37,324 bases of DNA, from NCBI GenBank assembly GCA_947589285.1, contig CANPZV010000010.1:1-37324 (forward strand). The letters run 5' to 3'. Origin of the DNA: an uncultured Clostridia bacterium. GTDB lineage: Bacteria; Bacillota; Clostridia; Christensenellales; Borkfalkiaceae. The translations under genes were made by a program, and so were the position numbers. The stretch's first letter is position 1, and each line of letters starts with the position of its first letter. The notes under the pieces were generated by a model that saw nothing but the letters and a program-made list of their open reading frames with translations, made no database searches and had not been told where the DNA came from. Of the stretch, positions 1,777-23,900 are shown piece by piece.

Positions 1777-1995
1777 TCAGCTCTCCCCGTCCTTGACCTG
1801 CTTGACGGCGTTCAAAAAGGACTCCGCATACGAGAACGGTTGCAGGGCGATGCCCTGGTTTTTGTCCGCCATGAGGAGGAGTGCGTCTCCCGCATTGAGA
1901 GAAAACATGTCGCGCACTTCTTTGGGAATGACGATCTGCCCCTTGGGGCCGATCTTCACGGTCGCAAGATATTTGCCTTCGGGAAAGTTTTCCAT
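1777..1995 (-). CDS. AbrB/SpoVT-family DNA-binding regulator
   Basis: Small dimeric swapped-hairpin DNA-binding protein (72 aa). The core ATVKIGPKGQIVIPKEVRD (about residues 11-29) is the classic SpoVT-AbrB motif, followed by FSLNAGDALLLMADK. It is first in a three-gene operon with the ABC ATPase and permease. The start has AGGAG nine bases upstream. A strong promoter and a perfect 15-bp palindrome lie directly upstream, so autoregulation of the transporter operon is the simplest reading (inference). It is not obviously the antitoxin of a toxin-antitoxin pair, because no toxin gene follows. The C-terminal roughly 20 residues are helical and not recognised. Confidence 0.88.
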   Translation of the reverse strand: MENFPEGKYLATVKIGPKGQIVIPKEVRDMFSLNAGDALLLMADKNQGIALQPFSYAESFLNAVKQVKDGES

Positions 1996-2009
1996 ACTGT
2001 ATTGCTCCT

Positions 2010-2058
2010 AAAAGTATTACTTTTCTTACATTATATACTTTTCAAATCCACTTGTCAA
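2010..2058 (-). promoter_or_regulatory. Sigma-A promoter and candidate AbrB operator
   Basis: On the minus strand a consensus -35 TTGACA (2053-2058) and -10 TATAAT (2030-2035) are separated by 17 bp. Just downstream, 2010-2024 is a perfect palindrome AAAAGTATTACTTTT, and its half-site AAAAGTATA recurs between the -35 and -10. The palindrome covers the expected transcription start, where a bound repressor would block initiation. The promoter call is strong; the operator role is inferred. Confidence 0.8.
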
Positions 2059-2089
2059 TGGTTTTTTTGAGAATTTTGAGATTTTTCGG

Positions 2090-2765
2090 TATTCCCGCGC
2101 TACGTCTTGCCCTTGGCCCTCCCGTGGGAGGTATCGTTCTCGCCCCCTCCATGGGAGGGGGTACGCGTCATGTTGAGGCGAAGCCGAAACATCCCGAAGA
2201 ACGAAGTCCGTTCTTTCCCCCTCGGGATTCATCGCTACGCTCTGAATGACGCAATCCCCCCACCATCCGCTATGCGGGAGCCTCATTATATAAGCCTTCC
2301 CCCCCGAGGGGGTCGCAAAACGCAATTCTTGCGCATCAGCACAGTGTGCTGTGCGCTGCGTTTTGCGGTGAGTGAGCGCATTATCCCGCGCGAACGGTGA
2401 CCGCCCCGCCCGCATTCTTATTGCTCCAAGGGCGGCACGAGCCGTAGGCGAAGTACTGCGGGTCTCTACCCGCATGAGACAGTGGCACGGCTCTGCCGTG
2501 ACGGTTGAGGGGCATCTTGATTGGAAGCACCCCTCATCAGTCGCCTTCGGCGACAGCTTCCCCCCACAGGGGGGAAGCCTTTGGACAAGAAAAGCTGAGG
2601 GACAGTCCCCTATAAGGGGCGACGAGGGGAATTCGTTTGAGGGGATCCTTCGCCTTCGGCTCAGGATGAGCCTCTCCCGCTCATTCTGAGCGTAGCGAAG
2701 GTCCTTGGTCGATGTCCCCCCACCCCCCGTTGCGTTTTGCGACCCCCGTAGGGGGTAGGCCGGAG
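2090..2765. repeat. Dispersed modular repeat island 2
   Basis: About 680 bp without a credible gene. Modules seen: CCCTCCC-type GC palindromes at 2116-2165; a 46-base segment 2165-2210 found exactly, inverted, at 33367-33412; a long inverted repeat at 2314-2367; and 2634-2760, whose phrases recur inverted at 28400-28567 in the same order (TTTGAGGGGATCCTTCGCC, GGCTCAGGATGAGCC, CCTTGGTCGATGTCCCCCC, GTAGGGGGTAGGC). The frames that stay open here are translations of repeats. Confidence 0.8.
2314..2367. repeat. Long inverted repeat with inner hairpin
   Basis: Perfect 11-base arms CGCAAAACGCA (2314-2324) and TGCGTTTTGCG (2357-2367) enclose a second hairpin CAGCAC/GTGCTG (2337-2342 and 2346-2351). 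Part of the outer arm (TTGCGTTTTGCG) recurs near 2730. It could form an extended RNA stem or cruciform. It lacks a T-run, so a plain terminator role is not supported. Confidence 0.6.
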
Positions 2766-2768
2766 ACG

Positions 2769-2797
2769 AAAAAAGAGAGCCGTGCGGCTCTCTTTTT
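2769..2797 (-). terminator. Intrinsic terminator of the three-gene ATPase operon
   Basis: Stem AAAAGAGAGCC (2771-2781) pairs with GGCTCTCTTTT (2786-2796) around a GTGC loop. On the minus strand the stem is followed by a U-run (A-run at 2769-2774), ten bases after the stop at 2807. The flanking T-run on the other side could also stop plus-strand transcription. Confidence 0.85.
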
Positions 2798-2806
2798 CGG
2801 AAGTTT

Positions 2807-4888
2807 CTAAATCACGTCCCCGTAGAGGTCGGTGAAGAGTTCCTCTGTGAGGAACACACGGCGGGCACGGCAGTCCGTAAACTCGGAAATGTACCCGAGG
2901 CACGCCATCCACTCGACGATCATGCCTGCCCGACTGTACCCGATCCCGCACCTGCGCTGAATGTAGGAGATGCTCGCGCTGTGCAAATCCACGCACAACT
3001 TCAACCCGTCGAGATAAACTTTGTCGGGCGGTTCGAGGCGCACCATCTCGGCGGGCGGCTCGGAGATGGGATAGAAGTCGAAGTGTTTGTTTGCCCCCGT
3101 GGCGATGCGCCGCACGGTAGCCCGCGGCGTCTCGGAGATGACCGCCTGCACCCTGGTCTCGTCCTCTCCCTCGCGATAGTAGCCGTCACCGCTCCCCACG
3201 AGGAGGTCGGACGGTTCGCAGAGGACGGAAATCCCCTCCCGCGCGGGGCGGAATTCGGGCCGTTCGCCCGCCGCGCCCGTGAGGCGGAAGTTCAGTCTCG
3301 CGCCGAACAGGCCGATGATGCGCGGAGGAAGCGTCTCCTCGGAGGCGTCGTTGACGGAGAGAATGACGCGTATGCCCGCCGCCCGCGCCCTTGCGATCTT
3401 CTCCAATTTATCTGCGAACTGCTCCCGCTCGGTCTCGTCCATGGGGGGAAGCCCGTCCATGACGAGGAGGATATTCTGCGGGCGCGTCTCCCCCTCCTTC
3501 GGGGGAGCGGTGAGGCCGCAGAGGATGTCGAGCATGGCGAACAGCCCGTGTTTCGTCGTGACCGTCCGCGGGGTGTAGGCGTGGGGAAGTCCCCCATAGG
3601 GGAGGAAGTCGGCGTGGCAGAATGCCGCAGAGAAGATGCGGAGTTTTTCGGGGGAGTACCGCGCGGCAAGCTCCCCGATCGCGCCGTGGAGGTAGGCGTT
3701 TCCCTCGACGCCGTTGTCGCTCGCGATGAGCAAATTATGATCTCTGAGGTCGCAGACGACGTCCTGCCCCTCGTGCGTCTTGCCGATGGCGAGATACAGC
3801 CCGTGCCTGCGCGGGTATTTGATCGTCCTCGCGAAATAGGAGACGGGGAGGGTCTTGCGCATTCCCTCGGGGAAGGGGACGACGAGTTTAACGAGATCGA
3901 GCCGTTCGTTCTCCTCGATGCTCGCGCGGCGGAAAAGCCCGAGCGCGTAGTGGGTGACGTACTTCTTCATGCGCGGATAGACCTCCGCGCTCGCCGCCCT
4001 GACCGTAAAGCCCACGACGGAATAGCCGATGTCTATCCTGATCATCTCGGCCTTCACCAGGCAGAAGTCAAAGACTTTGAAGAAGAGGTCCCGCACGGCC
4101 TGTACCGAGCGGAGGACGTCCTTGCCGATCCGCTGGCGGGGGCAGGCGCACGCGATGAGGTCGGAATCGGCGACCTTCGGCTCGCACGACTCCGCGCTCT
4201 CGATGCACGGGAGAATGAGGGACAGTTCGTCCACGTTGAGGGTGTCGGCGATCCCGTCGCCCAGCTCGCTGTCCATTACGGCGGCGTCCACGATCCTGCG
4301 TTTGTGCGCCTCGACGATCTCCTCGATCTCTTCGTCCGTCATCGGCTTGATGAGGCAGTCCTCGTCGTAATCGTCGTCATCTTCCGCAAAGAGCATGTCA
4401 AAATCGGCGTCGTCCAAGCCGCCGCCGTCGTCGGTCCCCTCGTCCTCCTCTATGAGGGCTTTGAGCCTCTTCTCCTCATCGCTGAGCCGATCGCTGCTGC
4501 CGTCATAGTCCCCGTAGAGGGTATGGAGCAGGTCTTGGTCATACTTTTTTGCGTTGCCGAAGAGACCGTCGAAAAAGGCCTGCACGGGGCTGCGCACTCC
4601 CCGCCGCTTGGGGAAGGCGGGCGCGGGCTTTTTTTCTTCGCGGGGGACGGTCTCCCCGCTGACGCGGGCGAACACGTCGTCGAGAGACTCGGGCGGCGCG
4701 GGAGATCTTCCCGCCCCCGCCGTGACGTATTCAAGCCCCTTGTCGTAGAACAGAAGGTCCCGCTTCACGAGATCGTTCACGAGGGTATAGACGGTGTAAT
4801 AGTCCGCGGAAAACCGCTGCTGTATGGCGGGAATGGTGACCCGCTGCTGTCTGAGGATATATTCCTCCATCTTTTTCTTGTCTGCCAT
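2807..4888 (-). CDS. FtsK/SpoIIIE-like protein with degenerate ATPase motifs
   Basis: 693 residues, no membrane segment. Residues 1-55 look like a winged helix; 140-190 are very acidic. Residues 280-590 follow the FtsK motor order: an alpha-like part, then GLYLAIGKTHEGQDVVCDL, matching the strand before FtsK Walker A. The P-loop position (FtsK GATGSGKS) reads SDNGVEGN (about 390-397), losing the GK[ST]. YGGLPHAYTP aligns with FtsK YEGIPHLLTP. The Walker B position reads LLVMDGLPPM (474-483), with the glutamate replaced. ARAAGIRVIL aligns with the conserved ARAAGIHLVL. The C-terminal ASISYIQRRCGIGYSRAGMI (638-657) is a clear FtsK gamma winged helix, which reads polarity sequences in true FtsK. 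It is therefore likely a non-hydrolysing DNA-reading paralogue. It is last of three cotranscribed genes; the start has no competing upstream start. Confidence 0.8.
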   Translation of the reverse strand: MADKKKMEEYILRQQRVTIPAIQQRFSADYYTVYTLVNDLVKRDLLFYDKGLEYVTAGAGRSPAPPESLDDVFARVSGETVPREEKKPAPAFPKRRGVRSPVQAFFDGLFGNAKKYDQDLLHTLYGDYDGSSDRLSDEEKRLKALIEEDEGTDDGGGLDDADFDMLFAEDDDDYDEDCLIKPMTDEEIEEIVEAHKRRIVDAAVMDSELGDGIADTLNVDELSLILPCIESAESCEPKVADSDLIACACPRQRIGKDVLRSVQAVRDLFFKVFDFCLVKAEMIRIDIGYSVVGFTVRAASAEVYPRMKKYVTHYALGLFRRASIEENERLDLVKLVVPFPEGMRKTLPVSYFARTIKYPRRHGLYLAIGKTHEGQDVVCDLRDHNLLIASDNGVEGNAYLHGAIGELAARYSPEKLRIFSAAFCHADFLPYGGLPHAYTPRTVTTKHGLFAMLDILCGLTAPPKEGETRPQNILLVMDGLPPMDETEREQFADKLEKIARARAAGIRVILSVNDASEETLPPRIIGLFGARLNFRLTGAAGERPEFRPAREGISVLCEPSDLLVGSGDGYYREGEDETRVQAVISETPRATVRRIATGANKHFDFYPISEPPAEMVRLEPPDKVYLDGLKLCVDLHSASISYIQRRCGIGYSRAGMIVEWMACLGYISEFTDCRARRVFLTEELFTDLYGDVI

Positions 4889-4900
4889 GACCGCCTCCCG

Positions 4901-6556
4901 TCACTCTGTACTGTAAATATATTTCTTGTCAAAAGGATCTGTCCTGCCGATGTACTCTTTTTCGTCGCGGAGGGGAAGATCGGCGAATTCCCTGCATTCG
5001 TAGTACCGCTCCAATTTGGAGAACAGCACATATCCGCAATTTGCCTCGGTGATGATGCACTCGCCCGCGACGAAGCGGGAGAGCATGCTGACGGGGACGA
5101 GCGGAATGGTGTCGAAGGAGAATTGGTTCATCTCGTACCCGCTCCCGTTGAGGGCGGAGACGGGGGAGAGCCGCGTCACCTTTCCGCACTCCTTGGAGAA
5201 CTTTTCGAGCGTTCCGGGGTCGTTGGACCCCATGAAGATGTGCATGTTGAGGTTCTCGACGACGATCTCCGCGACGGCGTCGCTGTACACGCTGTTGAGT
5301 TGGGCATACGACTGCATGATGAGGATAAAGAAGATGTTCCGTCCCGCACAGGCGGAGATGGTCGTCTCGAAGTCCTTCATCGCGGGGAAATTGCCGAATT
5401 CGTCCAAAATGAAGTAGAACGGGACCTTCCGCATGCCCGTCGGCTGTGCGTTGGCGTGTTCGATCAGAAGGCGGTAGGCGTCCTGAATGAAGAGGCTGAT
5501 GACCTTGAAATGCACTTTCAGTTCGTCGCGGTAGCAGATGAACACGGCGACGGGCTTCTCCCCCGTCAGAATGCTCATCTCAAAGGAGTTACAACTCGTC
5601 ACGAGGCGCATCGCGCTCTCGCGGAATACCGACAGTTTGGAGCTGAAAATGCTGATGATGCACTGCCTTGTGACGTTTGCCGCCTCGGGCAGCGTGCTGT
5701 ACGCGATCGCCCGCGCGCGGGAGGAGGAGGGACGGGAGGAGAAGAAGGAAGGGAATCCGTTCGTGATCTCCCCCATCAGGGTGATGATCGTGCCGAAGGA
5801 GAAGGTCCCCTCGGTGATCGGACGGCGGCGGCTGTTGGCAGTGGAATCCCGATCGCTGTCCTCGAGCATCCCCCAAAGATATGCCTTCAAAAGCTCCCTC
5901 GCGCTGTCCTCCCAATAGGGGTCGCGCTTGTCCTCGGTGGGGCAGACCATCTGGGCAACGGTGTCGATGTCGTTGCCGACCTCCTCCGTCATGAGCCTGA
6001 CCCAGCGGGCGATGGCCTCGTCGAGGGCCTTCTGGTCCTCATATACGACGCCGCGGAACTTGTTCCTCGGGCCGTTCGGCGTCATGACAAGTTCGACCTC
6101 CTTGTACACCGAAAAGATGGAGTGGTACTTGCGGAAGATGGGCGTCAGGGGGTTCCAGCACTCCGAATGGAGGTAGTTCCTGAAATTAAGGAGGAGGACG
6201 GTGTACCCCTCCTTCTCCAATGCGGCGGCGGTGTGGCGGTAGATCTCCCCCTTGGGGTCGGAGATGACCATGCTCTTCTTGTTCTTCGCCCGCGCAAAGG
6301 AGATGACGGTGGGAATGACGTAGGAGGTCGTCTTGCCGAGCCGCGTGGAGGCGATGACGCCGACGTGGTTCTCCTTCTCGGAATAGGTCTGAAGGAGCCT
6401 CCCGCCGACGTACCTCGCCGCTTTGAGTACGCCCGTCACCTCCCTTTCGGGGAGTTCGTCATACCATACGCTGTTCGGAAAGTCCTCGTTCATGTCGCTG
6501 TAATGGACATACGCCGTATTGTCGTAATCTTTGAGAAGTTCACTCATGATATCCAT
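4901..6556 (-). CDS. Soluble VirD4/TraG-like ATPase
   Basis: 551 residues from the ATG at 6556, chosen because GGAGG lies eight bases upstream; a GTG at 6565 falls inside that Shine-Dalgarno sequence. P-loop ASTRLGKT (about 69-76) fits [AG]x4GK[ST]; Walker B is FYFILDEFGN (about 380-389), typical of type IV coupling proteins; MQSYAQLNSVY (about 414) is the conserved motif after it. ISDPKGEIYRHTA near 100 is also typical of the family. Unlike VirD4/TraG it has no N-terminal membrane helices. No relaxase, VirB4 or other conjugation gene is nearby. It overlaps the upstream gene by 17 bases and ends 12 bases before the FtsK-like gene. In VirD4 relatives this fold pumps DNA or protein through a hexamer; the substrate here is unknown. 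It is the only protein of the operon with intact nucleotide-binding motifs. Confidence 0.85.
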   Translation of the reverse strand: MDIMSELLKDYDNTAYVHYSDMNEDFPNSVWYDELPEREVTGVLKAARYVGGRLLQTYSEKENHVGVIASTRLGKTTSYVIPTVISFARAKNKKSMVISDPKGEIYRHTAAALEKEGYTVLLLNFRNYLHSECWNPLTPIFRKYHSIFSVYKEVELVMTPNGPRNKFRGVVYEDQKALDEAIARWVRLMTEEVGNDIDTVAQMVCPTEDKRDPYWEDSARELLKAYLWGMLEDSDRDSTANSRRRPITEGTFSFGTIITLMGEITNGFPSFFSSRPSSSRARAIAYSTLPEAANVTRQCIISIFSSKLSVFRESAMRLVTSCNSFEMSILTGEKPVAVFICYRDELKVHFKVISLFIQDAYRLLIEHANAQPTGMRKVPFYFILDEFGNFPAMKDFETTISACAGRNIFFILIMQSYAQLNSVYSDAVAEIVVENLNMHIFMGSNDPGTLEKFSKECGKVTRLSPVSALNGSGYEMNQFSFDTIPLVPVSMLSRFVAGECIITEANCGYVLFSKLERYYECREFADLPLRDEKEYIGRTDPFDKKYIYSTE

Positions 6557-8159
6557 TGTAACCACCTCCGAATCCGTAATATGTATTGTGTTTTTCGCAG
6601 ATGAGACGGTAGTACTTCTTCACGTCGCCGTCGGTCAGCTCAAAGGCCGTCCTCCTGTGTTCGCGGACGGCGGCGTCGAGGATCTTGTCGATCTCGTCGG
6701 CCGTGTACTCGGAGAGGACTGCGGGCGCGACGGCCGCCATGGCGACGGAATTTGCCCCGTAGACCGATTGCTTCTCCCTGAAGATCTCGGCAGGGAGCCA
6801 GCTCTTCTCCTCCTTGGAGAGGGGAGCGATGCGCACGACGTCGCACAGGCCCTCCAACCGCTTCTCCCACTCCGCGTCGCAGAAGCACACGGGAAGCACG
6901 GGGGAGAGATCGATGGACACCCCGGGGCGCACGAGGCGGAACCGTCTCCGCTTCGCGCTCTTGAGGAAGTTCTTGGCGGCGTCGAACACCCGCTCGTGGA
7001 TCTCCCCGCGGAAGAACATCAGATATACATTGAATTTGTCCTCCGCGCACCCGCGCACAAAGAGATTGTTCTGGGTCGGCTCGAGGTCATACTCGGTCAT
7101 GTCTGAGACCTCGACGCGCTCCACGCGGGCAGAGGGGAACGCCCTGCGGACCGCGGCGGCGTACCGCTCGGTCATGTAGACGCTCTCCGACGACAGGCAG
7201 ACGGGGCAATACCCGTCGATGCCGCGCAGATCGAAGTTCTCGATGCGGGCCGCGACGTCCTCCGTCTCCCTGCTGAGGTAGGGGCGGACCGCGATGAGAG
7301 GCGCGGGGTCAAAGGGCGCGTCCGTGAAGGAGAGCTTCAGGGGAAGCGCGCTCGCCTCGGCAAAGAGTTCCTTATTGGGGGAGAGAATGACGGCCTCCTT
7401 GTCCTTCTCGTCCACGGCGGTGCTGTAGATGAGGCGGGCATGGGCCTTGGAATAGAGGTCGCGGCGGACGATGCCCTGCGCGAAGGCCTTTTCAAGGAGC
7501 AGATAGCCGCACCCGCCGTCGGGATCGGCCTTCCCATAGACGCTCTCAACGCGCCGCGCCGTCTCGTCGTGGCCGAGCCGCTTGAGCAGCCCGCTCAAAG
7601 GCACGAGATAGCGCGATCTGTCGTCGGGATCGTACGCAAGCCCCGCAAAGAGGCCCTCGATGCTGTTCCATTCGGCGGCCTTCCTGATGTTCTGCAAGCC
7701 GCGGGCGGGATCCTTGCCCATGACGATGCCCTCGCCGAGCAGTGCGCCGAGAATGACGAGGAAGGGCACGCAACCCCCCTCCGCCACGGCGAGAAGATTC
7801 TCGCACGCGACGGCCTGCACCGGCTCCGTGAGGGGAAGTTTGTACCGCTCCGCAAGGGAGAGCGCGCTCCCCTTGATGTCAAGGAGGCGCACCGTCTCGG
7901 GGTCCTCCTCCCGCTGTTCCCCGCGCATGGCAAAGAATTGGCGGAGCCTGCGCAGCTGCATATAGAGCTGTTCGCTCTTCAATTCCTGGATCTCGTCCCG
8001 CCTGACAAGCCCGAAGAGCCGCTCCCTCTCCTCTTCGGGAAGGAGAAAGATCCGCGCAAATACTCCGAAGAGCGCGCGCTTGTCCCCGCAAAAGCGGCCG
8101 ACGACCGCTTCGGCGAGAAAGTAAGTGTGCAACATGATTTCCGTAAGATACCCTAACAT
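6540..8159 (-). CDS. Unrecognised protein, Sel1-like part plus degenerate AAA+ fold
   Basis: 539 residues, first gene of the operon. I do not recognise a named family. Residues 115-215 have alpha-helical repeats of Sel1 character (for example ARGLQNIRKAAEWNSIEGLF). Residues about 310-500 follow the order of a Lon/Clp-type AAA+ domain: CLSSESVYMTERYAAAVRRA sits where GxPGxGKT is expected but has lost the P-loop; YLMFFRGEIHERVFDAAKNF sits where Walker B and the arginine-bearing helix are expected; SIDLSPVLPVCFCDAEW resembles the sensor-1 strand; and PLSKEEK with the later helices resembles the AAA+ lid. The AAA+ reading is inference from motif order only. Cysteines 318/321 and 425/427 might bind a metal. 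AGGAGG and AAGGAG precede the start. The last 17 bases overlap the VirD4-like gene. Confidence 0.6.
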   Translation of the reverse strand: MLGYLTEIMLHTYFLAEAVVGRFCGDKRALFGVFARIFLLPEEERERLFGLVRRDEIQELKSEQLYMQLRRLRQFFAMRGEQREEDPETVRLLDIKGSALSLAERYKLPLTEPVQAVACENLLAVAEGGCVPFLVILGALLGEGIVMGKDPARGLQNIRKAAEWNSIEGLFAGLAYDPDDRSRYLVPLSGLLKRLGHDETARRVESVYGKADPDGGCGYLLLEKAFAQGIVRRDLYSKAHARLIYSTAVDEKDKEAVILSPNKELFAEASALPLKLSFTDAPFDPAPLIAVRPYLSRETEDVAARIENFDLRGIDGYCPVCLSSESVYMTERYAAAVRRAFPSARVERVEVSDMTEYDLEPTQNNLFVRGCAEDKFNVYLMFFRGEIHERVFDAAKNFLKSAKRRRFRLVRPGVSIDLSPVLPVCFCDAEWEKRLEGLCDVVRIAPLSKEEKSWLPAEIFREKQSVYGANSVAMAAVAPAVLSEYTADEIDKILDAAVREHRRTAFELTDGDVKKYYRLICEKHNTYYGFGGGYNGYHE

Positions 8160-8207
8160 CTCTTTGATCTCCTTCCTCCTTTCAGATGCTTCGTTTTTCC
8201 GTTTCGC

Positions 8208-8241
8208 AAAAAATAAAACCGTCTTTTCTGCAAAAGACGGT
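8208..8241 (-). terminator. Intrinsic terminator inside the operon leader
   Basis: Ten-bp stem ACCGTCTTTT (8218-8227) with AAAAGACGGT (8232-8241) and a CTGC loop. On the minus strand it is followed by TTTTATTTTTT. It lies about 50 bases before the first start codon of the three-gene operon, so the promoter upstream can reach the genes only by read-through. Confidence 0.85.
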
Positions 8242-8439
8242 CTTTCCGCGGGCTACCCAAAGGTCAGCGTGCAAGTACGGGAGCATGGGATACTCCTCTT
8301 GCCGCCGTGCCGAAGAAAGACGGGCCTTTTGCCTTTGCGGGGATATTCCCCCGCAGGATCGTACGCTTGCATCCTGACATTTTTGTTTTCGTACTCCTCT
8401 CAGATGATTTTTACAAAATATATGTTGTATCTCACAACC
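8208..8439 (-). ncRNA. Structured leader RNA of unknown class, upstream of the ATPase operon
   Basis: The predicted start is about 8439, seven bases after a consensus -10. Reading on the minus strand: a small hairpin GTTGT/ACAAC, an A/U-rich linker, then GTCAG...CTGAC and GCAAG...CTTGC, which can pair over about 110 nt and enclose further hairpins (TGCGGGG/CCCCGCA; GGAGTAT/ATGCTCC). After them come GGGTAGCCC and an intrinsic terminator. The 5' strand of the long-range stem can alternatively pair locally (CAGGAT/ATCCTG), so two mutually exclusive folds exist. That, with a terminator before the first gene, suggests a riboswitch or attenuator. A free-standing RNA such as a 6S-like species is the alternative. 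I could not match it to a known riboswitch consensus. Confidence 0.6.
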
Positions 8440-8445
8440 ACGGAT

Positions 8446-8474
8446 ATTTTATCACCCTTTTCTGATCTTGTCAA
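8446..8474 (-). promoter_or_regulatory. Sigma-A promoter of leader and ATPase operon
   Basis: Consensus -35 TTGACA (8469-8474) and -10 TAAAAT (8446-8451) with a 17-bp spacer on the minus strand. It diverges from the ktrB promoter about 130 bp away. Confidence 0.85.
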
Positions 8475-8603
8475 CAGTTTGAACGCATTTTTTCGGAAAA
8501 TTTTTCGGATTTTTTTGAAAGTGCGAAACCGCGGAAAAGGGCCGTCTTTTTTCGGCGTTCCGCCCGATTCTTTCCGCCTCTTCCGCATTTCCCGCAAAAA
8601 CGC

Positions 8604-8632
8604 TTGATAATTGCCGCGCGATTTGATAAAAT
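8604..8632 (+). promoter_or_regulatory. Sigma-A promoter of ktrB
   Basis: -35 TTGATA (8604-8609), 17-bp spacer, -10 TAAAAT (8627-8632). Start of transcription expected near 8639, giving a short leader of about 24 bases that contains GAGGAAA before the ktrB start. Confidence 0.8.
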
Positions 8633-8662
8633 ATAGATGTTATCCTTTTACCGAGGAAAAGC

Positions 8663-9997
8663 ATGAAGCTGAAAACGAAAAGAAAGATGAGCATATGGCG
8701 GTATCTGACCCTCGGGTATCTCATCGTCATTCTCACGGGGAGCATTCTGCTCGTCCTGCCCTTTGCGGCGAGGGAAGGCTCCACCAACTATATCGACGCG
8801 CTCTTTACGGCGACCTCCGCCGCCTGCGTCACGGGGCTTGTCCCCTTTGACACATTCACGCACTGGACGCTCTTCGGGCAGATCGTCATCCTCATCCTCA
8901 TCCAGATGGGCGGGCTGGGATTCACGATCTTTGTCTCCATCGTCTTTATCATGCTCAAGCGCGGATTCGGGCTGTATGAGAGGAGCGCGGTCGTCCGCTC
9001 CCTCGGGAGCAACAACCTCATGGGCGTCAAGACGCTCGTAAAACAGATCGTCATCGGGACTTTTATCTTCGAACTCCTCGGCGCGGGGCTACTCTCTATC
9101 CGCTTCATCCCCGATTTCGGCGTCGGGCAGGGCATCTATTTTTCGGTCTTTCACTCCATCTCCGCCTTCTGCAATGCGGGCTTCGACCTGATGGGGGACG
9201 CGGGTTCCCTCTCGTCATACGCCTCCGATCCCCTCGTCGTCATCACGGTCTGCGCCCTCATCTTCATCGGGGGGCTGGGCTTCTGCGTGTGGGGGGACAT
9301 CTTCAATTGCAGGGCCAATCCCAAGAAATTCCAATTCTATACGAAGTTCATTCTCATCGTCAGTCTGATGCTGCTCACGATCTCGACGGGGCTGTTCCTC
9401 GCCTTCGATTGGAACATCGGCTATGCCGACAAGGGCTGGGGCGGGAAGATCCTGTGCGCCCTCTTCGACGCGACGACGGCGCGGACGGCGGGCTTCTACA
9501 CGGTGGACTACGCGAAGTTGTCTGAAAGCGGGTATCTTCTGACCGTCATTCTGATGTTCATCGGCGGCTGCTCGGGGTCCACGGCGGGTGGCATCAAGGT
9601 CGGCACGGTCGCGGTGATGATCATGGGAATGGTCGCCGCCCTCGGGGGGAAGAAGGACATCAACATCGGCAAACGCCGCGTGGATATGTCCCAGCTCCAT
9701 CAGGCCCTCGCGGTGTTCACGGCGTACCTCTCCATCATTCTCGTCGCCGTGATGAGCATCTGCGCCTTTGAGCCGCTCACCTTCAAGGAGGCACTGTTTG
9801 AGACGGTCTCCGCCCTCGGGACGGTGGGGCTGAGCCTCTCGGTCACGCCGCGCCTCGGCGTCGCCTCCAAGATCATTCTGACGCTTTTGATGTTCGCGGG
9901 AAGGGTGGGCGTACTCACGATCGCCATGGCCCTCGGACGGAAGAACAAATCGGAGGCGAAGATCAAACGCCCCGTGGAAACGATATTTATCGGATAA
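8663..9997 (+). CDS. ktrB: Potassium uptake channel subunit KtrB/TrkH
   Basis: Membrane channel (444 aa) of a Ktr-type potassium or sodium/potassium uptake system. The four pore loops of the SKT superfamily are visible, each with its filter glycine: TSAACVTGLV (51-60), SISAFCNAGF (165-174), TTARTAGFYT (271-280) and SALGTVGLS (383-391). FIGGCSGSTAGGIKVGT (299-315) is the conserved stretch containing the intramembrane gating loop. Length matches KtrB (about 445) rather than longer TrkH. It is followed after eight bases by the cytoplasmic RCK gate subunit, so the two form one complex. Confidence 0.93.
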   Translation: MKLKTKRKMSIWRYLTLGYLIVILTGSILLVLPFAAREGSTNYIDALFTATSAACVTGLVPFDTFTHWTLFGQIVILILIQMGGLGFTIFVSIVFIMLKRGFGLYERSAVVRSLGSNNLMGVKTLVKQIVIGTFIFELLGAGLLSIRFIPDFGVGQGIYFSVFHSISAFCNAGFDLMGDAGSLSSYASDPLVVITVCALIFIGGLGFCVWGDIFNCRANPKKFQFYTKFILIVSLMLLTISTGLFLAFDWNIGYADKGWGGKILCALFDATTARTAGFYTVDYAKLSESGYLLTVILMFIGGCSGSTAGGIKVGTVAVMIMGMVAALGGKKDINIGKRRVDMSQLHQALAVFTAYLSIILVAVMSICAFEPLTFKEALFETVSALGTVGLSLSVTPRLGVASKIILTLLMFAGRVGVLTIAMALGRKNKSEAKIKRPVETIFIG

Positions 9998-10005
9998 GGA
10001 GAAAT

Positions 10006-10656
10006 ATGGTATCTGTTTTACTCATCGGCATGGGGAAATTCGGGCGGGAGCTTGGCGAACGGCTCCTCGGCATGGGCGACGAAGTCATGATCGTGGACAA
10101 GGACGAGGACACGATCAACGCCCTTGCTGCCCGCTATACCAATGCCCTCATCATGAACTGCATGGTCATGGACAACCTCCGCTCGCTCGATATCCCCTCC
10201 TACGACGTCTGCGTCGTTGCGATCGGGGACGACTTTCAGGCCTCCCTCGAGATCGCGTCCAACCTCAAGGACCTCGGGGCAAAGCGCGTGGTCTCCAAGG
10301 CCTCCACGGAGATCCAGCGGAAGTTCCTCATGCGGGCGGGCGCGGACGAGGTCATCTATCCCGACAGGGACGTCGCCGAAAAACTCGCCGTCACGCTCAA
10401 CTCGGCGAACGTCGTCAACTTCATCGAACTCGACGCCGAACACGCGATCTTTGAGATCGAGACCCCGAAGAAATGGCTGAAAAAGCGGGTCATCGACATC
10501 AATCCCCGCGTGAAGTTCGGCATGAACATCTTGACCGTCAAGAAGGGCAACAACGTCATCGCGACGGTGGACGGGAACTATGTGTTCGAGGAGGGCGACC
10601 TCATCGTCGTGTTCGGCAATACCGAGGCCATCCTGCGCTTTACAAATAAGAAATAA
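10006..10656 (+). CDS. ktrA: KtrA/TrkA regulatory RCK subunit
   Basis: Cytoplasmic ring-forming regulator (216 aa) of the KtrB channel. The N-terminal Rossmann motif LLIGMGKFGRELGERL (5-20) and the acidic residue ending strand 2 (IVDKDEDT) form the nucleotide-binding RCK_N domain; residues 135-216 form RCK_C, the region that binds c-di-AMP in B. subtilis and S. aureus KtrA (known from the family). AGGAGA precedes the start. The last 101 bases plus downstream DNA are present a second time at 12300-12432. Direct regulation by the cdaA product encoded in this window is a reasonable inference. Confidence 0.93.
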   Translation: MVSVLLIGMGKFGRELGERLLGMGDEVMIVDKDEDTINALAARYTNALIMNCMVMDNLRSLDIPSYDVCVVAIGDDFQASLEIASNLKDLGAKRVVSKASTEIQRKFLMRAGADEVIYPDRDVAEKLAVTLNSANVVNFIELDAEHAIFEIETPKKWLKKRVIDINPRVKFGMNILTVKKGNNVIATVDGNYVFEEGDLIVVFGNTEAILRFTNKK

Positions 10657-10688
10657 CTCAATGGCTTTTGGGGGAGAATATGAAAAAG
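10556..10688 (+). repeat. Direct repeat copy 1 (ktrA 3' end to start codon of next gene)
   Basis: 133 bases nearly identical to 12300-12432, with five mismatches by eye. It covers the last 101 bases of ktrA, the spacer and the ATGAAAAA that begins the hydrolase gene at 12424. In this copy the ATG at 10680 opens only an eight-codon vestige ending TGA, so the real hydrolase start has been displaced downstream by the inserted gene. Confidence 0.9.
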
Positions 10689-10702
10689 GAAAGGGGAATC
10701 TT

Positions 10703-12217
10703 ATGAGGTTCCAAAAATACTTTTTAACAACTTGTCTCAGCATCATCTTTGCTTTTTCTGTTGTTGCATGCGCACCGCAAAATCACCCCTCACTTGTCGA
10801 TCCTTCGCCCGTCGATCCCTCACCCGTCGATCCTTCACCCGTCGATCCTTCACCCGTCGATCCCTCACCCGTCGATCCTTCACCCGTCGATCCCTCGCCC
10901 GTTGATCCTCCGCCCGTTGATCCTTCGCCCGTTGATCCTTCGCCCGTTGATCCTTCGCCCGTTGATCCACCCGATGAGACAGTAAATTATGAGGTATTAA
11001 CGGATATATCTTCCGTTTCTCTTGTTGCGGGCGATGAACTCTTTGGCGTCACTAAACTTACCGCAGAAGTTTTGCGGGACGGGAATCAATTCGCCGCCGT
11101 GCCTGAATATTCTTCTGCCGATCCCTCCGTGGCGGAAATTGACTACGACGGTAAGATTACGGCAAAGGGATATGGGAAAACTACAGTCTCCGCTTCTTAT
11201 GAAGATGCTTGGGCCACGGTGGAAGTCACCGTGTTTGAAACCGCCACTGCAGAGGACATTAACTCCTTTTCCGAAACATACGTCGGCTTATTCGGCCGTA
11301 CTTATGAGCGAAACAATGCAATATATTTCGACAATCCGGCTACAGGTTTTGAGGTAAGTTTCCTCGGCGAAAAACTGACTGCGGATATCGGCCTCGAAGG
11401 CAATGTCTATATCTGTATATATACCGATGGCAACACCGCGCCTACGCGTGTCAAGATCCCCTCAAGCGGGTCCATAGTCTTGGCAGAGGGCCTCCCGCAC
11501 GGGATCCATACGATCCGCATTTTGAAATCTTCCGAAGTTAACAAAGGTGCTTTTTCTTTGCGATCCTTGAATGCCGATTGTTTTCTGCGTGCGCAAAAAA
11601 CAATCGGCCCCAAAATTGAATTTATTGGCGATTCGATCACGGCGGGCTACGGCGATCTTTCACATCAAGGTCCAACGTGGACACTGGAAAATTCTGATGC
11701 CTGTTCAACTTATGCCTGTCTCTCCGCACTCTCGCTCGATGCTGACTTCTCTGTTGTGGCACTTAGCGGAATTTGCGTAAAAAAACACATATTTGTCTCA
11801 GTAAATATGGAAGAAATGCACCCGCTTACATCTTTGCGCACCAATGAATCGTGGACATACGAAACAGATGTGGATATTGTCGTTCTCAACCTTGGGACAA
11901 ATGACGGTAGATATATCCTGCTCAAGGACGCAGAATATGCAAACCATTTTTCCGATGATTACATGAATTTCGTCATGAACCTGCGAAATATATATCCTAA
12001 TGCCTATATCATTTGTATCTACGGTATGATGGGGAAGGTCGAAGCGATAGACGACGGGATCAAAGACGTTGTGACGGCTTTGCAGGACGAAAAAATCATC
12101 TATTTGGATGTTTTCGAAGCGGATCTTAACGGTGCAGAATCGCATCCATGCAAAGAAGCTCACGAGCAGTATGCAAAACAATTAACGGAATATATTGAGA
12201 CACTACCTATCGGCTGA
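10703..12217 (+). CDS. Secreted lipoprotein, Pro-rich stalk, BIG2-like domain, CE2-type SGNH esterase
   Basis: 504 residues from the ATG at 10703, which gives a clean lipoprotein signal (hydrophobic stretch ending in the lipobox VVAC). Next come twelve VDPSP-type repeats, a probable wall-spanning stalk. A bacterial Ig-like BIG2 domain follows (SSADPSVAEIDYDGKITAKG). The rest has carbohydrate-esterase family 2 layout: a beta-rich domain with HGIHTIRILKSSE, then SGNH motifs GDSITAGYG (nucleophile Ser about 311), NLGTNDG (about 396) and a catalytic His in SHP (about 480). CE2 enzymes remove acetyl groups from plant polysaccharides; the substrate here is inferred. Base composition is clearly AT-richer than ktrA and the following gene, and the gene lies exactly between two copies of a 133-bp repeat, indicating insertion. 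Confidence 0.85.
   Translation: MRFQKYFLTTCLSIIFAFSVVACAPQNHPSLVDPSPVDPSPVDPSPVDPSPVDPSPVDPSPVDPSPVDPPPVDPSPVDPSPVDPSPVDPPDETVNYEVLTDISSVSLVAGDELFGVTKLTAEVLRDGNQFAAVPEYSSADPSVAEIDYDGKITAKGYGKTTVSASYEDAWATVEVTVFETATAEDINSFSETYVGLFGRTYERNNAIYFDNPATGFEVSFLGEKLTADIGLEGNVYICIYTDGNTAPTRVKIPSSGSIVLAEGLPHGIHTIRILKSSEVNKGAFSLRSLNADCFLRAQKTIGPKIEFIGDSITAGYGDLSHQGPTWTLENSDACSTYACLSALSLDADFSVVALSGICVKKHIFVSVNMEEMHPLTSLRTNESWTYETDVDIVVLNLGTNDGRYILLKDAEYANHFSDDYMNFVMNLRNIYPNAYIICIYGMMGKVEAIDDGIKDVVTALQDEKIIYLDVFEADLNGAESHPCKEAHEQYAKQLTEYIETLPIG
10796..10975 (+). repeat. Twelve-unit 15-bp tandem repeat in lipoprotein gene
   Basis: Twelve in-frame 15-base units (GTCGATCCTTCACCC type) encode VDPSP, one variant being VDPPP. 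Units 1-7 use GTC and units 8-12 GTT for valine, showing block-wise expansion of two subtypes. Length changes by slippage would stay in frame and alter only stalk length. Confidence 0.95.
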
Positions 12218-20938: not shown

Positions 20939-23900
20939 ATGGCAAAATCAGAAAAAGATCTCTCCCTCCAACTGCGCTTCCCCGCATACGTCGGCTACGC
21001 GGACCACTACTTCTCCGCGCCCGCCTCTGTCATCGTGCGCAACGACGCCCTCACGGACGCCGCGATCGCCGTGCGCGTCACCTGCGGGGAGGGGCTGTTC
21101 GTCTACTGCGAAAAGGCGGTCACCGTCCCCTATGATAGCTCTGTGGAACTCGGCCTCGAGGGGATCTTCAATCCCGTGTTCCTCTCCGAATGCGACCGCG
21201 TCACCCCCTGCACCGCGACGGCGGCCATTTTGAAGGACGGCAAAGAGATCACTTCGGAGACGGCGGAGATCATCGCCCTCCCCTTTGACTTCTGGGAGGG
21301 CATGAAGGGCAATCCCGAACGGCTCGCCTACTACGTCCGTCCCCGTCTGCCCGACTGCAACTCCGTCCTCCTCGAGGCGGGCAACCGCCTGAAAGTCTGG
21401 GGGAGCGACCACTCCAACGGCTACGAAAACTGCGACAAGAACAGCATACGGAGCGTGCTGGCGGCGATCTTTGCCGTCCTCAAGGGCAAGTCCATCGAGC
21501 GCGACGGCGAGATCGACGCGACCGCCCCCCTCTCCTGCATGCGGGACAAGCTGCTCGAGGGCAAGAAGGCGACCGCGCTCGAACTCGGCGTCCTCGCCTG
21601 TTCCTGCCTCGAGGGCGCGGGGCTTCACCCCGTGCTTGCCATCGGCGAAAAGGACGTCGGCGTCGGCGTGTGGCTGTATGAGACCTGCTTCCTCGACAGC
21701 GTTTCGGAGGACAGGGAGATCGTGGAGAGATACATCTCCGACGGCATCAACAATTTGGCCTTCTTCGACGCGGACGACCTCTTCTCGGACAAGAAGGGGG
21801 CGTACGTCATCGCCGAATCGCACTTCAAGAGCAAACTCGAACGGGGGAAATACTCCCTCTTTACGGATATCCGCCGTTGCAGACTGGCGGGGATCAGACC
21901 CTGCCCCGCCCGTGAAAAGGGAGAAAACGGCTATGAGATCTACAGCGAGGAGGAGACTTCGGGCGAACAGCCCCCCGCTCCCCTCCCCGAACTCGGCAAG
22001 CAGGAGACCGTCGCGACGGGCAGCGAAAAGTGGGAGAGGCGGCTCCTCGATCTCTCGGGCAAGAACGCCCTTTTGAACTTCACGGGCAAAAACGCCCTTC
22101 ATCTCCAATGCTGCGGCGCGGACGAACTGCAACTCGTCGCGGCCTCCGCGCCCCTCCGCATCATCGGCAGCGGCGAGACGGCCGACCCCTTCGGCGCAAA
22201 GACGGACGGGCAGAAGAAGGAACTCGTCCGCCTCGAACAGGAACAGGGATTGCTCAAGGTCTACGGGAGCGCGGAGGAGGCGGCAAGCACCGCCCTCCGT
22301 CTTTTGCGGCGCGACCGCACGGCACAGGAGGAGACGGGCGCAAGCACGCTCTACCTTGCCATCGGCTTCCTCTGCTATGCGACGAAGGAGGGGCAGACCC
22401 GCTACGCCCCCCTCATGCTCATACCCGCCTCCCTCAAACGGCAACGGGGGATCGACGGCTGTATCCTCTACGCCGAGGGGAAGGAACGCTTTGTCAACGC
22501 GACCCTCCTCGAATACCTCAAACGCGAATTCGGCGTGGACATGCGCGGCCTCGGGGGGAACATCTCCTCCCTCAAACCGAGCGAGATCTTCGCGACCGTC
22601 CGCGCGGAGACGGCGCGCATGAAGAATTGGAAGGTCTGTGAGGACGCATACCTCGCCTCCCTCTCCTTCGAACGCTTCCTGATGTGGAACGACCTCCGCC
22701 GCTCCTACGAGGAGTTCGGAAAGAACGCCCTCTTCTCCGCCCTCAAGGACGGGACGTTCGAGCATCACGCCGCCCCCGTCTCGGGCGAGGACGAGAGCGA
22801 TCCCGCCGACTACTTCCTTCCCCTCCCCTCGGACAGTTCGCAGTTCTCCGCCGTGGCCCTCTCCGACGCAGGCTCCAGCTTCGTCCTGCACGGCCCCCCG
22901 GGGACGGGAAAGAGCCAGACCATTGCAAACATCATCTCCAACGCCCTCGCCAAGGGCAGGAGAGTTCTCTTCGTCGCCGAAAAGCGGGCCGCGCTCGACG
23001 TCGTAAGAAAGCGGCTCGACAGCGTGGGCATCGGCGCGTTCTGCCTCGGCCTCTACGGCGACAAGGCGGACAAGGCCGCCACGATCAAGAAGATCGAATC
23101 GGCCCTCGCGCTCAGGCCCGAGGAGGGCGGCGGGCGCAACGCCAAGGAGGTCCTTGCCCTCATGCAGGGCCTCTCCGCGCCTATGCTCGCCCTGCACCGG
23201 CGGCGCAAACTCGGCCTCTCCGTCTACAGCGCGATCCTCGGCTACCTCGAAAACAAGTCCGCGCCCGACATTCTCGACATCGAGAGCGGCTTCTACGACG
23301 CCTTGACGGAGGAGAAGTTTGCCGAATTCAAGACGGTCATCCTCCGCGCGGCCGCCGCCGCAAGGGAGTGCGGCTCCGTTGCGCATTCCCCCTTTGAGAA
23401 CGTCGGCCTGACCGCGTGGTCCCCCCGGCTTCGCGACAGAGTGTTCTGCGCCTCCGAGGTCGTGATCGCCGAGAGCAGGCACTTCAAGTCCTTCTTGACC
23501 CTCTTCCTCGAATTCTACCGCCAGACGGTCTCCTCCCTCTCCGAGGCCAAGATCCGCGCGCTCATGACGCTCGCGGACGACCTCAAAAACGGAAAATATG
23601 ACAAATATTTCGCCGCGACGTCCGCCGAAGAGTTCTCCGCCTTCTTCAACGCGAACCGTCAGCTCGACAGCTGCCTCGGCTACTACTTCAAGCACTTCAA
23701 GTCCCTCGTCGATCCCGACAATCCCGCCGAACTCAAATCTCTCCGCGCGGGCGGGGATTGGCGGCTGCTGAAGAGCGGAAAGAGTACGCTCAAAAAGCTC
23801 AACCGCGTCGCCCTCTCCCCCATCCGCGACGAGGACGTCGTCAAGTTCCTCGTCACCCTTGCGGACATCTCGGAGGCCGAGGACAGGGTCGCGGGATTCG

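Follow-up and report, generated by a model that had tools for sequence, protein, structure and literature searches.

The window examined here, a stretch of 37,324 nucleotides from an uncultured Clostridia bacterium of the Borkfalkiaceae, is contig C10 of genome G000 (1.29 Mb in 62 contigs, 86% complete). It carries on the minus strand one unit of three genes, A (6540..8159), B (4901..6565) and C (2807..4888), whose products probably constitute a soluble machine that processes proteins with the energy of ATP and in cooperation with the protease ClpP. This reading is based on gene order and conservation, predicted folds, motifs that were lost or kept, a motif in the C-terminal tail of A, and the triad motifs and a docking-site residue of ClpP proteins encoded beside related units. 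The sequence-only reading of the locus had described one intact and two degenerate translocase-like ATPases, and this trio proved to be real: B has an intact P-loop, A and C have none and C has kept its gamma domain. Overall, the earlier interpretation was supported in part; it had missed the ClpP link, which is detectable only in relatives.

A scan of a species-genome collection with a B alignment yielded 115 relatives, of which the best 80 were taken and all 80 analysed; gene calls in these came from a codon-score caller with uncorrected frames. A lies directly upstream of B in 75 of the 80 loci, and the two genes overlap or are at most 26 nucleotides apart in 74 of these 75. A one-off arrangement was rejected on the basis of this adjacency. 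One locus, L117, is cut by contig ends and starts too near to one of them to show A. In the window, A and B overlap by 17-26 nucleotides and a gap of 12 nucleotides separates B from the start of C.

A encodes 539 amino acids and comprises a helical N-terminal half, an AAA+ module (residues 237-523, 6591..7451, minus strand) and a C-terminal tail resembling a ClpP-docking element. The module has the Lon-type AAA+ fold and no P-loop: only three residues separate the first strand from the helix in the model, and no match to the P-loop pattern was found in 72 of 75 homologues. The three matches that did occur lie at residue 437 of 448 (in the tail), 380 of 526 and 170 of 531, away from the first strand at approx. 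residue 320. A cannot be a canonical ATPase. It has no Ser-Lys protease domain and ends 16 residues past the last helix of the module, in a disordered tail (predicted local distance difference test, pLDDT, 25-44) which contains the motif YGFGG (residues 528-532, 6564..6578, minus strand). A matches no Pfam family, and Pfam searches with 11 members gave nothing consistent. Between the window and the related locus L112, the ratio of nonsynonymous to synonymous substitution rates (dN/dS) of A is 0.13. The earlier suggestion that the AAA+-like protein is an adaptor fits these results and can now be put more specifically: the Lon-type module is dead and the tail of the protein is of the ClpP-docking-like type.

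All 75 A sequences have the pattern [ILVMYF]-G-[FLY] within their last 25 residues. In 1000 shuffles it was found in 11.6 sequences on average and in 22 at most, and it was present in 100 of 977 other proteins of the same loci and in 5 of 80 B proteins. The strict form [ILV]-G-[FL] is found in 20 of the 75 tails, compared to a mean of 3.9 and a maximum of 10 in the shuffles. When the 75 tails are centred on the motif, the Gly is invariant, the next place holds Phe in 71 and Tyr in 4, the following two places are Gly in 65 and 63, and the other flanks vary. The tripeptide is followed by 3-12 residues in 68 of the 75 proteins and by none in three; four (L165, L166, L168 and L170) end exactly in GFGG. 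Docking of ClpX on ClpP via I/LGF loops is described in two papers (PMC7112952, PMC12383707). The genome of the window encodes a ClpX with LGFGG and a ClpC with LGFG, both named via PF10431 matches and by eye, with the ClpX loop picked by eye among four tripeptide matches. A has the hydrophobic-Gly-Phe docking motif in the form YGFGG, the first residue being Tyr, unlike the Ile/Leu of ClpX.

A second ClpP gene is located directly upstream of A in 43 of the 80 loci. One of these dedicated ClpP proteins was tested and matched CLP_protease (8e-61), and one was aligned to a solved ClpP for the Ser-His-Asp triad. Of the 43 proteins, 42 have the Ser motif and all have the His and the Asp motif, so that the triad is complete in 42; the remaining protein lacks the Ser motif in its gene call. 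In the tree, the 43 form one group set apart from 9 housekeeping ClpP proteins by one branch (Shimodaira-Hasegawa-like approximate likelihood ratio test, SH-aLRT, 100), the comparison set being 9 of ten with L207 left out. The dedicated proteins lack the greater part of the N-terminal gate segment (positions 3-11 missing in 40-41 of 43). The residue aligned with Y63 of Staphylococcus aureus ClpP is Gln in all 43 dedicated proteins and Tyr in all 9 housekeeping ones. In a review, Y63 is placed at the H site of ClpP and the Y63A variant is given as constitutively active (PMC9035409).

The first residue of the tail motif is aromatic in all 43 ClpP-bearing loci (36 YGF, 4 FGY, 3 FGF). Among the 26 scorable loci without an adjacent ClpP, 17 have LGF or IGF and nine, the window among them, an aromatic form, and aliphatic IGF/LGF tails are confined to loci where no ClpP was found. 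Fisher's test on tail type and ClpP presence gave 5e-10 with kinship ignored. As related loci are not independent, the association is only suggestive. The A tail is FGYGG rather than YGFGG in four loci (L172, L173, L174 and L179), each with a dedicated ClpP, and these represent a natural variant pair.

B, with 554 amino acids from a GTG or 551 from an ATG at 6556, is a soluble VirD4/TraG-family ATPase. It matches PF02534 (2.9e-50) and TraG-D_C (1.2e-25) and has a VirD4-type nucleotide-binding domain with a Walker A motif, the P-loop ASTRLGKT (residues 72-79, 6329..6352, minus strand), whose pattern is present in 77 of 80 relatives. The nearest family is CD1115 (NCBIfam NF045973), for which B scores 227.2 bits, below the curated cut-off of 250. 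No membrane helix, and hence no N-terminal membrane domain, was detected in B of the window, where the highest hydropathy over 19 residues is 1.55; a value of 1.6 is reached by 5 of 80 relatives, and the P-loop begins at residues 65-85. When 13 distant VirD4-like loci were processed with the same hydropathy script, membrane-like segments before the P-loop were found in L052, L053, L056 and L071 and none in L054 and L057, while 7 of the 13 were unscorable. L057 (G041:C7) and L054 (G051:C23) encode other VirD4-like proteins of 606-616 amino acids without membrane helices, and a weak partial match to A lies upstream of the one in G041. B has a dN/dS of 0.08 between the window and L112.

C encodes 693 amino acids and consists of an N-terminal gamma-like winged helix (residues 1-57, 4718..4888), an acidic disordered linker, an FtsK motor fold without P-loop and an FtsK gamma domain (residues 622-680, 2849..3025; PF09397, E 1.3e-13), all on the minus strand. 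The gamma domain is close to that of another FtsK-family gene in the same genome. The motor fold is kept in the model, the confidence of which is low, and Walker A is missing: alignment with the intact L115 and L119-L122 places SDNGVEGN (residues 390-397, 3698..3721, minus strand) at the P-loop position. The N-terminal winged helix is the constant part of the C family. A gamma-like winged helix was found in the gene after B in 63 of the 78 loci with a same-strand downstream gene (E < 1e-3), and the motor core in 8 of 78 (BLAST with the L115 core), with none detectable in most members. Motor cores with a P-loop occur in L115, L119, L120, L121 and L122, and those without in L112, L113, L114 and the window. 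The last four have open frames of 627-693 codons. Between the window and L112, dN/dS is 0.37 for the whole of C, 0.19 for the winged helix, 0.42 for the core and 0.18 for the gamma domain. These values and the shared absence of the motif indicate that C is constrained, most strongly at the winged helices, and that the missing P-loop is clade-wide. Relatives with an intact P-loop, which the sequence-only reading had named as a sign of simple decay, do exist, but simple decay was rejected given the kept frames and the constrained dN/dS, with a relaxed constraint acknowledged.

Among 61 genomes (that of the window and 60 relatives), A was found in 10, and B at ≥50% identity in the same ten. The A profile matched in 44 of 396 genomes of an order sample, that of the window included, with at least 7 matches being weak and covering the helical-repeat stretch only. 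In a phylum sample of 398 genomes it matched the window's own genome and none of the 397 others. The A family is rare outside the order; loci of B relatives with Bacilli and Mollicutes titles are present. The unit occupies a common site beside TrkH in the window, L112 and G030. G032 has a clean empty site there: none of A, B and C is matched in the stretch adjoining TrkH, and TrkH is next to a lipoprotein gene whose counterpart in G030 (69% identity over 299 residues) comes after C. This empty site shows the unit to be an accessory block which is gained or lost cleanly. At L214 (3-437, G031:C77), an integrase-like open reading frame, recognised by eye, lies beside TrkH at the site that the unit has elsewhere, possibly an insertion hot spot.

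In the proposed mechanism, B would be the motor, a ring ATPase of the VirD4 family that is no longer tied to the membrane. A, a Lon-type AAA+ protein without catalytic activity, would form a coupling ring or serve as an adaptor and use its tail to dock on ClpP. The coupling of motor and ClpP by A is suggested since, in place of the protease domain of Lon, A has a flexible tail with the motif [YFLI]-G-[FY], after which GG comes in most cases. C, an FtsK derivative relying on gamma-type winged helices, would act as an adaptor: it would probably bind DNA, or a client that is itself bound to DNA, and deliver substrates to the motor. At the 43 loci with a ClpP gene, the system has a ClpP to itself, the docking site of which is altered. 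No private ClpP was found in the focal clade, and A would there depend on the one housekeeping ClpP for docking. From the observations above we infer complex formation, unfolding, proteolysis, DNA guidance and the role of the unit. A more specific version is considered possible rather than probable: the non-AAA+ VirD4 (FtsK-HerA) motor B would thread proteins via the dead-Lon ring A into ClpP, the FtsK-gamma adaptor would send the machine to DNA, and the docking site of the private ClpP and the tail of the coupler would have changed together (aromatic-Gly-Phe with Gln), which would insulate the system from housekeeping ClpXP.

Several observations weigh against the ClpP-linked machine. To our knowledge, VirD4-family ATPases are receptors or pumps for DNA and protein substrates and not protease caps. 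No adjacent ClpP was found in 26 of 69 scorable loci, including the focal locus and its nearest relatives L112 and L114; absence was unscorable in 12 of 81 rows, which have no A or have a contig end within 700 bases ahead of it. G000, which is 86% complete, has one ClpP only, on another contig, and G030 likewise has one. A different gene takes the place of A beside B in L131, L187, L189 and L191. The kinship-corrected test of tail type and ClpP presence was non-significant (5 supported independent pairs, of which 2.9 agree on average and 0 oppose, p 0.25), with 9 changes for both traits on the tree. Finally, C of the focal clade is fast-evolving, as seen from its dN/dS as a whole and in the core, and may be loosening.

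In a rival reading, the unit of the focal clade is a reduced derivative that has lost its ClpP and the ATPase activity of C, and is now a non-proteolytic remodeller or disappearing. The focal clade (window, L112, L113 and L114; support 100) is nested among ClpP-bearing members, a position from which a nested loss of the private ClpP is likely; the P-loop of C is missing in all four members and the dN/dS of C exceeds those of A and B. On the other hand, A and B are strongly constrained, the YGFGG tail is kept, the three frames are intact and the unit is held at the same TrkH site in the window, L112 and G030, and we regard such a reduction as unlikely. Equally doubtful is a DNA pump or DNA-handling machine, in which B would move DNA, C would place or orient it via its gamma domains, A would be a structural ring and ClpP, where present, would serve turnover only. 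Its appeal lies in the DNA-coupling family of B, in the FtsK descent of C with a gamma domain much like that of another FtsK-family gene of the genome, and in the intact motor P-loops of L115 and L119-L122. It accounts poorly for the small number of downstream genes with an FtsK core compared to those with a winged helix (8 and 63 of 78), and for an A protein that is of the protease-associated Lon type, has a ClpP-type tail and is preceded by ClpP in 43 of 80 loci.

The conserved tail could instead have a role other than ClpP docking, e.g. a contact to B or a ubiquitin-like C-terminal GG. The four A proteins that terminate in GFGG and the retention of the tail where no ClpP is adjacent are in line with this, but most A proteins continue for 3-12 residues past the tripeptide and three end right after it, inspection by eye of the first residues of the 45 most widespread neighbour clusters revealed neither conjugating nor deconjugating enzymes, and the motif equals the ClpP loop of ClpX from the same genome; such a role is therefore judged improbable. 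It is highly improbable that the unit belongs to a conjugative or mobilizable element, whether as a remnant or as a functioning part, in spite of the coupling-protein superfamily of B and its proximity to CD1115 (227 bits, cut-off 250). Relaxase PF03432 exceeded its cut-off in one of ten trio-bearing genomes (G005), on a contig without the trio, in a search that did not extend to other relaxase families and integrases; G018 has two sub-threshold PF03432 matches on contigs without the trio. Only one of the ten, G018, has a VirB4-type PF19044 match; this lies on contig 11, and the trio of that genome on contig 25. For these two families in the ten genomes, B is not encoded with a relaxase or a type IV secretion system. 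The conjugative element was rejected on these grounds together with the plain flanks and the clean empty site in G032, and the soluble machine without conjugation genes postulated earlier is upheld by the same data. A phage or plasmid origin was likewise rejected as far as tested with A: viral contigs gave 13 pattern hits, none of which was confirmed, and no plasmid matched A (B was not searched there). In G018:C11 (L070 region, 64716-78610), a VirD4-like protein occurs with the VirB4-type match and a weak relaxase match, which is probably a true conjugative element.

Upstream of A in the window, a promoter-like site (8446..8474, minus strand) consists of TTGACA, a spacer of 17 nucleotides and TAAAAT with 11 of 12 consensus matches; 6 such sites were observed in 1900-8900 vs 1.4 expected. 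A terminator-like hairpin with a T-rich 3' side follows C (2773..2794, minus strand, fold z -4.0). A second terminator-like hairpin, with 13 pairs, is located in the leader between the promoter-like site and A (8215..8244, minus strand, fold z -2.9), whereby the leader may be attenuated and the hairpin may be an attenuator; terminator-like sites of this kind number 10 vs 6.5 expected by chance. Ten flanking genes were compared with Pfam and fall without exception into ordinary families, namely TrkH, TrkA, an ABC transporter pair, MazE-like, an amino-acid kinase with ACT domains, a hydrolase, DUF1295, DUF1015 and a DUF4011 helicase. The latter (20939-26470, 1843 amino acids) also has an MTES_1575 restriction-nuclease-like domain and is a separate possible defence gene. 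A further open reading frame (10580-12217) encodes a signal-like stretch followed by many VDPSP repeats.

A known defence system was considered and not adopted, as the matches obtained with PADLOC were weak and partial (C to SspH with 1.2e-5, B to mad8 with 2.3e-5, A to none). The mad8 match of B covers P0002 63-199, and kinases beside relatives match mad6, which gives a lead to the MADS defence system. A protein kinase (PF00069, 3e-11) lies upstream of the unit at L073 16267-18766 and L074 15699-19988 (G005); its neighbours are VWA- and PP2C-like by eye only, and the two tested gave no Pfam family. TIR-domain genes occur near the unit in G030 (L072 5588-6688, TIR with leucine-rich repeats) and G024 (L078 12054-13346, TIR with a methyltransferase). 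Extra genes stand beside the trio at L078 2974-6909 (G024), L075 4876-6653 (G036) and L076 4664-6172 (G015). They are Snf7-like (PF03357 8e-4, below the cut-off), an AAA ATPase that is Vps4-like by eye (PF00004 5e-36), a RuvB-like AAA protein with the RuvB C-terminal winged helix and a trypsin-like protease. An XRE-type gene is found upstream in L072 and L079 and has no convincing counterpart in the window. The patchy distribution and the kinase, TIR, Snf7-like and AAA neighbours in some relatives would fit a role in conflict or stress.

The proposed machine resembles ClpXP, ClpAP and ClpCP in combining a ring ATPase with a compartment protease and in having a hydrophobic-Gly-Phe docking motif (LGFGG in ClpX, YGFGG in A). 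It differs from them in that, within the focal set, an intact P-loop is found only in a VirD4-family subunit and not in an AAA+ one, that the docking-like motif is the C-terminal tail of a separate dead AAA+ protein, and that the dedicated ClpP lacks most of the gate segment and carries Gln where the docking site otherwise has Tyr. Unlike Lon protease, A has neither P-loop nor protease domain and carries a ClpP-type tail instead. With VirD4/TraG coupling proteins of the CD1115 family, B shares the nucleotide-binding domain and the TraG-D C-terminal domain, but it has no membrane domain and, as far as searched, no relaxase beside it, and its constant partner is A. C departs from FtsK/SpoIIIE by the missing P-loop, the extra N-terminal winged helix and a motor core that is detectable only in the few downstream genes mentioned above. 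No description of such an operon was found in the full-text literature searched, the coverage of which excludes most subscription papers and all bioRxiv preprints.

Taken together, the link of A, B and C with ClpP in this group of gut bacteria suggests an unrecognised kind of protein-degrading machine, possibly guided by a DNA-binding partner. The energy-dependent compartment proteases known to us are powered by AAA+ rings. If the reading is true, the unit would represent a new way to build a compartment protease, in which the only intact ATPase site of the focal set comes from the DNA-pump superclass. VirD4-type motors would gain a role outside secretion and conjugation, ClpP would have a natural private docking pair, and the protein family of A, which matches no Pfam family, would obtain a concrete function.

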